From a virus: 64,000 bases of DNA. Below are positions 6,082 through 17,611 of this stretch, in pieces. The position numbers and the translations under genes were made by a program. The DNA lies in IMG/VR virus record IMGVR_UViG_3300032236_000765, positions 1-64,000 of that record. One strand, given 5' to 3'. Every line of letters begins with the position of its first letter. Position 1 is the stretch's first letter. Under the pieces are notes generated by a model. That model searched no databases, was not told the DNA's origin, and was given only the letters and a program-made list of their open reading frames with translations.

Positions 6082-6684
6082 TTACATTGCAACCGGACCG
6101 TTGCCGTTTCTAAAACCAACTTTACCGCCCTGTTCTTCAATTCGCTTGATAACTTCTTCGAATAGAATAGGCTTGAAGTCAGTGTGCTCAACACACACTG
6201 AGAAATAGTCAGGATCGATTTTGTCACTGTATAGTATTTCTCCGGTCTCATCATCAACACCGCATATCAAACGAACACGATTACCATGAGTATGACCGTG
6301 AATATTGCACCCGAAACGGGCGATACTGTCCTTGCTCACAGGAATGTGAGACAGGATACATCCGTTCATGACATGGTACGCACGGATATCACGGAAGTAC
6401 TTCATGTAGTCAGCCAAGCTAAAGATATCATGATTGCCCTTGATCAGGACTTTGTCACCATTCAGCCGGTCTAGGATTTGTAGGCTCTTGCGGTTGATGA
6501 CAACATCACCGAGATGGTAGACCTTGTCCTTAGGACCGACAGTCTCGTTCCATCGCTTCACCATTTCTTCATCCATCTCTTCAACATCATCCCATGGACG
6601 TACAGGAGTTCCATCATAATTGGTGAACTTGCAGATATTAGCGTGACCGAAATGGGTATCACTTGTTAGAAAAACGGATGGCAT
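6082..6684 (-). CDS. Calcineurin-like metallophosphoesterase
   Basis: 200 residues from the ATG at 6684, chosen because AAGGAG lies 8 nt upstream. The metallophosphatase motifs are complete and ordered: SDTHFGH (D-x-H), GDVV, GNHD (about residue 84), a His in the ILSHIP segment and HGHTHGN. This is the pattern of the YfcE/phage Pph-type phosphodiesterase family, which binds two metals. Substrate not determinable. It has its own promoter. Confidence 0.85.
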   Translation of the reverse strand: MPSVFLTSDTHFGHANICKFTNYDGTPVRPWDDVEEMDEEMVKRWNETVGPKDKVYHLGDVVINRKSLQILDRLNGDKVLIKGNHDIFSLADYMKYFRDIRAYHVMNGCILSHIPVSKDSIARFGCNIHGHTHGNRVRLICGVDDETGEILYSDKIDPDYFSVCVEHTDFKPILFEEVIKRIEEQGGKVGFRNGNGPVAM

Positions 6685-8199: not shown

Positions 8200-8276
8200 T
8201 GGTAGCAGCAAGAGGATTCGAACCTCTGACATCCAGAATATGAGTCTAGTGCTCTAACCAGCTGAGCTATGCTGCC
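8200..8276 (-). tRNA. tRNA with CAT anticodon (elongator Met or lysidine-Ile)
   Basis: Acceptor GGCAGCA/TGCTGCT with G1-U72, D arm GCTC/GAGC, anticodon loop CTCATAT. Both elongator Met and Ile2 (lysidine, AUA) tRNAs carry CAT, and sequence alone does not separate them. One of three CAT tRNAs here. Confidence 0.9.
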
Positions 8277-8283
8277 TCAATAA

Positions 8284-8679
8284 TCAATTCAAATGGTTGA
8301 TTAGTGCTTCCTTGCGACAGTCTACGCTTTCGCTATAGTACCCGTTTGAGGTACCGTAAAAACGAATAGTCACATATCCCTTGTATGTTGCGAAGTTGTA
8401 GAAGGTCCATGTATAGCTATCTTCACTTTCACTCAGCGGGTCTTCGTCTGCATTATGGACTTCATTAGCGATCAGCAACGGCCAACCTTCTAAATCTTCC
8501 AGGTCACCTGTGATATCCTCTACATATACACTTTCACAACAATCTCGCCGATGATAAAGTACATACCGTACCTCATCATTTTCAAAGATGACTTCATCTT
8601 TTTCTTCTGTCATCCAGACACGTTTGAAAGTCTGGCCGAACATTTCTGATACTTCAACATGTGTGTCTTGCCAACCCAT
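8284..8679 (-). CDS. DUF7448-like protein
   Basis: 131 residues, acidic. The central and C-terminal pattern CCESVYVEDITGDLEDLEG..L..ANE, then YTWTFYNFATYKGYVTIRFYGTSNGYYSESVDC matches the phage family known as DUF7448, whose function is unknown. It sits inside the tRNA array between two CAT tRNAs and is transcribed with them from the promoter at 8893. Confidence 0.75.
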   Translation of the reverse strand: MGWQDTHVEVSEMFGQTFKRVWMTEEKDEVIFENDEVRYVLYHRRDCCESVYVEDITGDLEDLEGWPLLIANEVHNADEDPLSESEDSYTWTFYNFATYKGYVTIRFYGTSNGYYSESVDCRKEALINHLN

Positions 8680-12631: not shown

Positions 12632-12716
12632 TGGTGGGGCATCCCGGGATCGAACCAGGCGTGTCATAAGACGGCGGATTTACAGTCCGCTGCATCACCG
12701 TTGATGCTTCTACCCC
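12632..12716 (-). tRNA. tRNA-Tyr(GTA)
   Basis: Class II, 85 nt. Anticodon stem GCGGA/TCCGC with loop CTGTAAA, long variable arm, discriminator A, CCA. The first acceptor base pairs (GGGG/CCCC) are strong and 7:66 is a mismatch. Confidence 0.93.
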
Positions 12717-16409: not shown

Positions 16410-16483
16410 TGGTGCCCTATGACAGAATCGAACTGCCGCTCACTGATTACGAAACAGTTGTTCTACCATTTAACTAATCATGG
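16410..16483 (-). tRNA. tRNA-Thr(CGT), degenerate
   Basis: D arm, T arm (CGGCAG...CTGTC) and encoded CCA are recognisable. The anticodon loop TTCGTAA reads ACG. The acceptor halves (CCATGAT and ATAGGGC) pair poorly, and the anticodon stem closes with a U-U mismatch. It is probably decayed, or requires repair/editing of the acceptor. Confidence 0.6.
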
Positions 16484-16895: not shown

Positions 16896-16980
16896 TGGTG
16901 CGGATGAAGGGACTCGAACCCCCACACCTTTCGGTACTGGTACCTAAAACCAGGGCGTCTACCAATTCCGCCACATCCGC
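16896..16980 (-). tRNA. tRNA-Leu(TAG)
   Basis: Class II, 85 nt. Acceptor GCGGATG/CATCCGC, anticodon loop TTTAGGT on CTGGT/ACCAG, CCA. Reads CUA/CUN. Directly downstream of the structured RNA at 16986. Confidence 0.95.
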
Positions 16981-16985
16981 ATGTT

Positions 16986-17109
16986 CTGATATTCTTAGGA
17001 AGAGAGTTTGGAAGAATTGCACTTCCCTAGGATACTGACCTATCCTCTTTGCACTGGTCAGAGTGCAGAGTTCGCCACTTAACAGGAACTCCCTACCTAA
17101 GAATATCAG
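16986..17109 (-). ncRNA. Structured RNA with four hairpins and kissing loops
   Basis: Minus strand 5' to 3': a perfect 14-bp closing stem (CTGATATTCTTAGG at 17109-17096 with its complement at 16999-16986) encloses four hairpins. These are GAGTTC/GAACTC with a 12-nt loop (17091-17068); TGCACT/AGTGCA with loop CTGACC (17067-17050); AGGATA/TATCCT with loop GGTCAG (17046-17029); and GGAAG/CTTCC with loop TGCAATT (17026-17010). The loops of hairpins 2 and 3 are perfect 6-nt reverse complements, so a kissing interaction is predicted. The element lies about 150 nt inside a transcript begun at the promoter at 17259 and 5 nt before tRNA-Leu. It resembles no RNA family I can name. Confidence 0.75.
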
Positions 17110-17258
17110 GTATAGATTTAGAATCTAAACTGCGACGGTGAGAACCGGCTTCGTCTTTAATCTTGTGCACCAGGAAACGACACAAGAACCGCTAGACCTA
17201 ATATTTTCTAACAATGTCAAAGAACAAGAGCGTCTTTCGTCGCTCTCTCTATGTTCTA
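17110..17258 (-). other. Leader between promoter and structured RNA
   Basis: No gene. It holds several further stems: AGAGCG/CGCTCT with an 8-nt loop near the 5' end of the transcript (about 17227-17246), CTTGTG/CACAAG (about 17162-17186), CGGT/ACCG around TCTC (about 17135-17146) and TAGATT/AATCTA (17113-17127). The whole 270-nt leader looks like one folded RNA. Confidence 0.5.
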
Positions 17259-17287
17259 AATATAGCGCAGGTCCAATTCAGAGTCAA
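17259..17287 (-). promoter_or_regulatory. Sigma-70 promoter of the structured RNA-tRNA unit
   Basis: TTGACT (17282-17287), 17-bp spacer, TATATT (17259-17264). Predicted start near 17252. Confidence 0.85.
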
Positions 17288-17323
17288 CCGAAAAACGACC
17301 TAGATGCGAAATATTTTTTAATA

Positions 17324-17398
<75 letters not shown>

Positions 17399-17611
17399 AA
17401 AATACGGTTTTTATCTACTTCACGAAGACTCGGGCGAATAGCGTATGCAACTCAATCATGCCTTACTCGCTTGCTCTTGGTAGCCCGGGCGTAACCGAAA
17501 ACCGGTAAATTGCTAGCCTAATACAAGACTAGCAAACTGAAAATATTTATATAGGTATGCCAGCGAAAGATAATCTTTCATCCTTAATATGAGTAAGGAT
17601 CTTTCGCTGGC
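17399..17611 (-). ncRNA. Structured noncoding stretch
   Basis: No gene. Nested complementarity: CGGTTTT (about 17404-17410) with AAAACCG (17499-17505) enclosing GGGC/GCCC; a 7-bp hairpin TTGCTAG/CTAGCAA (about 17509-17534); and a 13-bp perfect stem GCCAGCGAAAGAT (17559-17571) with its complement at 17599-17611 that encloses a second stem CCTTA/TAAGG. The last hairpin also directly follows the stop at 17611 and may end that transcript. Confidence 0.5.

Follow-up and report, generated by a model that had tools for sequence, protein, structure and literature searches.

The tRNA array and its rRNA-type leader

The window analyzed here covers 64,000 nt of a virus record of 75,022 bases and belongs to a large phage that encodes a T4-type clamp loader and a head-closure protein; its 29 tRNA genes all lie on the minus strand. 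Two further Rfam tRNA matches on the same strand (12635-12716 and 16413-16483) were missed by ARAGORN and are perhaps degenerate or odd tRNAs. A structured, tRNA-like element directly precedes the tRNA-Leu(TAG) gene and is itself preceded by a leader containing a promoter, a hairpin, a boxA, and another structured cassette (Table 1). Upstream of tRNA-Phe, this array also contains a perfect inverted repeat of 13 bp whose arms are separated by 27 nt (17559-17611).

Table 1. Coordinates of the element, its leader, and a recurring cassette (window positions unless a contig is named)
Feature	Position	Strand	Basis or remark
Promoter TTGACT-17-TATATT	17259-17287	minus	Consensus scan; region conserved in relatives
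Leader hairpin before boxA (boxB-like position)	17227-17248	minus	Inverted repeat; equivalent hairpin in relatives
boxA GTTCTTTGACATTGTTAG	17208-17225	minus	As in Sphingomonadales rRNA operon leaders
Another structured leader cassette (approximate limits)	17124-17196	minus	Sequence conserved between window and L240
Whole tRNA-like element	16986-17109	minus	Folding z score of -6.4 and homologs
Outer helix, 5' strand	17087-17109	minus	Inner 7 nt GGGAGTT (17087-17093), acceptor-like part
D-loop-like AGTGGCG	17073-17079	minus	Invariant in 5/5; aligns with tRNA-Ser D-loop
Hairpin 2, anticodon-arm-like	17047-17070	minus	6-nt loop CTGACC (17056-17061); 8/10 pairs changed on both sides
Hairpin 3, variable-arm-like	17030-17045	minus	Loop GGTCAG (17035-17040); 4/5 pairs changed on both sides
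T-arm-like hairpin GGAAG-TGCAATT-CTTCC	17010-17026	minus	Invariant in 5/5; aligns with tRNA-Ser T-arm
Outer helix, 3' strand	16986-17008	minus	AACTCTC (17002-17008), acceptor-like part; no CCA
tRNA-Leu(TAG)	16896-16980	minus	ARAGORN; immediately next to the element only in the window phage
Cassette ACTTRTTAGATGAA...TTCTTCTAAYAAGT	L212:721-879; L213:2017-2100; L219:1309-1423; L221:2091-2211; L236:7970-8083; L236:8094-8188; L240:6282-6410		Recurring; see text

The sigma-70 promoter proposed for this leader in the first-pass annotation was recovered; promoter matches in the region are no more numerous than in shuffled sequences, and the support for this promoter comes from its conservation in relatives. 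The same 18-mer is found without any difference in 26 stretches of genome sequence, of which 19 come from Sphingomonadales, and the 16S gene starts 192 to 235 nt downstream of it in 10 stretches. Judged from these matches, a leader of the rRNA type (i.e., a promoter followed by a boxA matching that of host rrn leaders) heads the phage tRNA array. The likeness to Sphingomonadales rRNA operons, which share the promoter region, the subsequent boxA, and its identical 18-mer, concerns the leader and not the element, and the leader here heads a phage tRNA array instead. Because the window phage uses an rRNA-type leader shared with this order, its host is probably a freshwater sphingomonad or another member of the Sphingomonadales. 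A similar promoter, hairpin, and boxA also head the tRNA operons of other viral contigs (L212, L213, L218, L219, and L221 to L231), and the leader region of L227 contains an apparent intron within a tRNA-Leu gene. No boxA of the GTTCTTTGACATTGTTAG type was present in the tRNA regions of PA5oct and Phosso, and a literature search returned no paper on phage tRNAs with boxA antitermination.

Homologs and the conserved fold

Searches with a covariance model built from the single element sequence (R1), together with pattern scans, identified homologs on seven other viral contigs. With the window, these represent five distinct sequences of about 100 to 124 nt, the other four being L221 (identical to L223), L240 (L244), L236 (L239), and L253. 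Every homolog lies in a tRNA array, on the tRNA strand, and 110 to 310 nt behind the conserved promoter, hairpin, and boxA. The position directly before tRNA-Leu(TAG), reported in the first-pass annotation, holds in the window; tRNA-Phe follows the element in the other four variants, which thus show no fixed link to tRNA-Leu. L236 and L253 are >90% identical over much of the array, yet the 5' halves of their elements differ and only the 3' halves, from UAGGG onward, are shared (compared at L236:8281-8686), indicating recombination within the element. L236 looks like a recombinant whose 5' half is of the L221 type and whose 3' half is of the L253 type.

Further searches added no homologs. The element had no match in 399 Sphingomonadaceae genomes under strict filters, its core was absent from the scanned genome contigs, and blastn against a collection of isolated phages gave at most short chance matches. 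R1 detected no copy among 50 clamp-loader relatives, R2 (the model of the element itself) recovered only the known contigs from a second set, a looser pattern scan had nothing to add, and the use of neighboring proteins as bait led to phages without the element or to nothing. The pattern CTGACCAGTG..GGTCAG occurred in at least 119 stretches of the viral contigs, approximately the chance expectation, and was dropped.

The RNA strand of the element is the minus strand, because all tRNAs and all homologs run in this direction and the stems contain seven G-U cells versus one A-C cell when read in this sense; the antisense strand was dropped on account of this asymmetry. A protein-coding function was also dropped, as the indels in hairpin 2 are nontriplet. 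The minimum free energies were -49.6 (plus) and -51.1 (minus) kcal/mol, with z scores of -7.2 and -6.4, respectively, and none of 200 shuffled sequences was as stable. The first-pass annotation described four hairpins enclosed by a perfect 14-bp stem. That inverted repeat (16986-16999 and 17096-17109) is present, and the helix continues beyond it through a U-U mismatch and eight further pairs, giving 23 positions per arm (91% complementarity). Three of the hairpins are well supported; the fourth (GAGTTC/GAACTC) would form in competition with the extended outer stem, contains mispairs in L221, and is lost in L253.

In an alignment of the five distinct sequences (A3), hairpins 2 and 3 have heavily altered stems that nonetheless remain paired, and the D-loop-like AGUGGCG and UAGGGAAGUGCAAUUCUUCCAA are invariant. 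Across the three hairpins and the loop-loop helix, 97.6% of cells are paired and 13 pairs are changed on both sides; neither value was reached in any of 500 shuffles, and sliding the partner columns by one to three positions reduced pairing to 34 to 49%. The fold is real and conserved. The outer helix is more variable: in the window, L221, and L240, 97.1% of its cells are paired, with two double changes, whereas a shorter stem replaces it in L253 and it is broken in L236. The long outer stem is thus retained by only three of the five variants.

The loops of hairpins 2 and 3, which close two adjacent hairpins, are exact complements in the window, as had been noted, and they are complementary in all five variants. 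A prediction that paired changes would be found in the two loops was borne out once, with CUGACC/GGUCAG in the window corresponding to CUAACC/GGUUAG in L253, a single compensatory change; in L240, loop 2 is CUGACU, which gives one G-U pair in the loop-loop helix. By a rough count, the chance that one random change in loop 3 restores the pairing lost through a given break in loop 2 is about 1 in 18. The variation in hairpin 3 is confined to L253 in this sample of five sequences, and the covariation between the loops, good as it appears from the alignment, comes from one event. Taken together, the loop pairing is probably under selection. The two loops also carry valine triplets, with an anticodon in one opposite a codon in the other (GAC and GUC in the window; AAC and GUU in L253); this may be a coincidence.

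Relation to tRNA-Ser and to other RNAs

No Rfam family matched the element at E values up to 10, and no description of it was found in the open-licence literature. Known riboswitches, ribozymes, and the ROOL and GOLLD RNAs were dropped as candidates given the lack of an Rfam match, and a group I intron was dropped, as none is present at the element. (A group I intron does lie in the tRNA array of L240, at 2290-2475 on the minus strand; Rfam RF00028, 61.4 bits.) The absence of a described family, as the first-pass annotation had supposed, thus stands with respect to Rfam; the shape itself is that of a class II (long-variable-arm) tRNA with altered arms.

With filters off, the best weak matches of R2 were tRNA genes, two of them tRNA-Ser, and we therefore built a covariance model from 12 phage tRNA-Ser genes with the element excluded (R3). 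This model matched all five elements over model positions 1 to 90 and on the correct strand. The match was strong for L253 (20.9 bits; E value of 0.0013 in 35 kb) and fair for the window (11.4 bits; E value of 0.0038 in 340 nt). Those for L221 (10.3 bits), L236 (7.9 bits), and L240 (7.6 bits) are weak on their own (E values of 0.8 to 3.7 in 35 kb) and draw their weight from falling exactly on the core. The arms map in the tRNA order. The acceptor is followed by the D-loop (AGUGGCG, of which AGUGG is shared with tRNA-Ser), then by hairpin 2 in the place of the anticodon arm, hairpin 3 in that of the variable arm, and a T-arm directly before the acceptor strand, the last corresponding to the T-arm-like TGCAATT loop that had been pointed out in the window. 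L253 additionally has a 7-position acceptor (GGUGCUC/AAGCAUC), the discriminator G73, and an encoded CCA, which is absent from the window, L221, L240, and L236. With relaxed thresholds, ARAGORN called a tRNA over the core in the window, L221, and L236 but not in L253. Of the three roles offered in the first-pass annotation, that of a tRNA mimic is the one supported, an independent tRNA-Ser model having matched every variant, and the comparison points to an element very probably of tRNA-Ser origin.

The element also departs from tRNA-Ser in several ways. In all five variants, the anticodon-like loop has 6 nt on a stem of 8 to 10 bp instead of the 7-nt loop and 5-bp stem of a tRNA, and position 55 of the T-loop is G and not U. 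In the window, the general tRNA model RF00005 gave no match up to an E value of 10 in 16981-17323. The anticodon-like loop is complementary to the variable-arm loop; six complementary bases between these loops were found in none of 50 genuine Leu, Ser, and Tyr tRNAs (at most four in 49 and five in one). In the window lineage, additional pairing caps the acceptor, which lacks CCA, so this RNA would hardly be charged or take part in decoding. The features retained and lost suggest that the element is probably nondecoding.

Two groups of phage RNAs offer partial parallels. ROOL and GOLLD are large RNAs that phages carry close to tRNA islands; kissing loops aid their assembly, and GOLLD members can exceed 800 nt (PMC12286853). 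The element resembles them as a structured phage RNA near tRNAs with kissing loops, here predicted from complementarity, but it is far smaller, matches no Rfam family, and would assemble only hypothetically. The phi29 prohead RNA, a part of the packaging motor, has two loops that pair between molecules through a 4-bp contact (PMC7357161). The element, also a small RNA of a phage, likewise has a pair of complementary loops, conserved in 5/5 variants with one double change; the prohead RNA differs in its 4-bp contact, its fold, its role in the packaging motor, and the lack of a link to tRNA arrays. The element is a member of none of these groups, and a comparable way of working would require its loops to pair between molecules. 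The sequences thus point to a real and conserved phage RNA that derives from tRNA-Ser and is unusual in the complementarity kept between its loops.

Other cassettes occur in these arrays. The cassette framed by ACTTRTTAGATGAA...TTCTTCTAAYAAGT, with one U-U mismatch in its outer stem, has very different interiors at its seven sites (Table 1), four of which contain a canonical T-loop (TTCRANN). Another, with an enclosing stem of approximately 20 bp (ACTTGTTACGCTATYACTGC...GCAGTRATAGCGTAACAAGT), combines a T-arm with tRNA-like parts and was found in L221 (about 6326-6486), L222 (about 8238-8396), and L224, its interior differing between L221 and L224. Their common theme is a long outer stem, and many also have a canonical T-arm close to its 3' strand; no complementary hairpin loops were seen in the neighboring cassettes on the sense strand.

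Possible roles of the element

The likeness to tRNA-Ser could also be that of a decaying pseudogene, a duplicate drifting in a fast-recombining array without a present function, and both the loss of CCA outside L253 and the apparently recombinant L236, which lacks the closing stem, are compatible with this origin. Drift would, however, be expected to break the features that are kept in all five variants (the D-loop, the T-arm, and the loop complementarity) and not to replace stems pair by pair, and we consider a pseudogene decidedly unlikely. A role in processing, in which the long stem would be an RNase III site for trimming the precursor of the next tRNA, is suggested by the 23-position helix five bases from tRNA-Leu and by the long stems that also frame the neighboring cassettes. 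As a conserved role, this proposal of the first-pass annotation is not supported, because the long outer stem is missing in two of the five variants (L253 and L236) and the next tRNA differs; since it also leaves the invariant core and loops unexplained, it is very unlikely.

The complementary loops themselves permit other readings. They could form an alternative hairpin that melts both arms and refolds the tRNA leader; in favor of such a switch, the alternative hairpin is just 0.8 to 6.3 kcal/mol less stable than the loops-open fold. However, no terminator or regulated gene is linked to the element, the following tRNA and the outer stem vary among the homologs, and both hairpin stems covary, making a conformational switch highly improbable. 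Pairing within one molecule would yield a compact pseudoknotted tRNA-like fold and would account for the constant order of the two loops in one RNA and for their similar stem lengths. Against this, stem 2, the kissing helix, and stem 3 would stack to about 60 Å, compared with a linker of about 1 nt, and such an intramolecular contact is unlikely. Because the hairpins are only about 1 nt apart, A-form geometry makes pairing between molecules likelier than pairing within one, and we regard intermolecular pairing as a serious possibility, if one on which we would not yet rely.

On balance, we lean towards the element being a phage-encoded tRNA-like RNA of class II descent (most likely from tRNA-Ser), in which the anticodon and variable loops are kept complementary, which is cotranscribed with the tRNA operon, and whose likeliest use would be as a decoy or scaffold. 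It would be transcribed with the operon from the rRNA-type promoter and boxA, the sequence of which suggests antitermination, and its fold would comprise a helix resembling an acceptor stem, the D-loop-like AGUGGCG, an anticodon arm that is elongated and ends in a 6-nt loop, a long variable arm, and a T-arm. In the window lineage, the capped acceptor without CCA would leave charging and decoding hardly possible; selection probably maintains the complementarity of the anticodon and variable-arm loops. A coaxial loop-loop helix of 6 bp would form most easily between two molecules and could thereby give rise to dimers or rings. The product, stable and shaped like a tRNA, might serve as a decoy or scaffold for an enzyme whose binding targets are tRNA elbows or long variable arms. 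Candidate partners are SerRS, an enzyme that modifies tRNAs, and a defense nuclease with which the host cuts tRNAs; this use is a speculative proposal that we hold with little confidence. Somewhat less doubtful, and still tentative, is the idea that the element represents a new class of phage RNAs (i.e., nondecoding tRNA-Ser derivatives that form dimers or rings via kissing of the anticodon and variable-arm loops), one of several exchanged tRNA-like cassettes with long capping stems in arrays organized in the style of rRNA operons.

The element suggests that tRNA genes of phage arrays have been turned into something other than decoding tRNAs, with apparent selection for a loop-loop contact seen in none of the 50 genuine tRNAs surveyed. 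If the contact is between molecules, the element would be a small RNA made by a phage for assembly and far easier to study than the large ROOL and GOLLD cages. It also offers an entry point to understanding why structured RNAs are placed by phages in their tRNA arrays.
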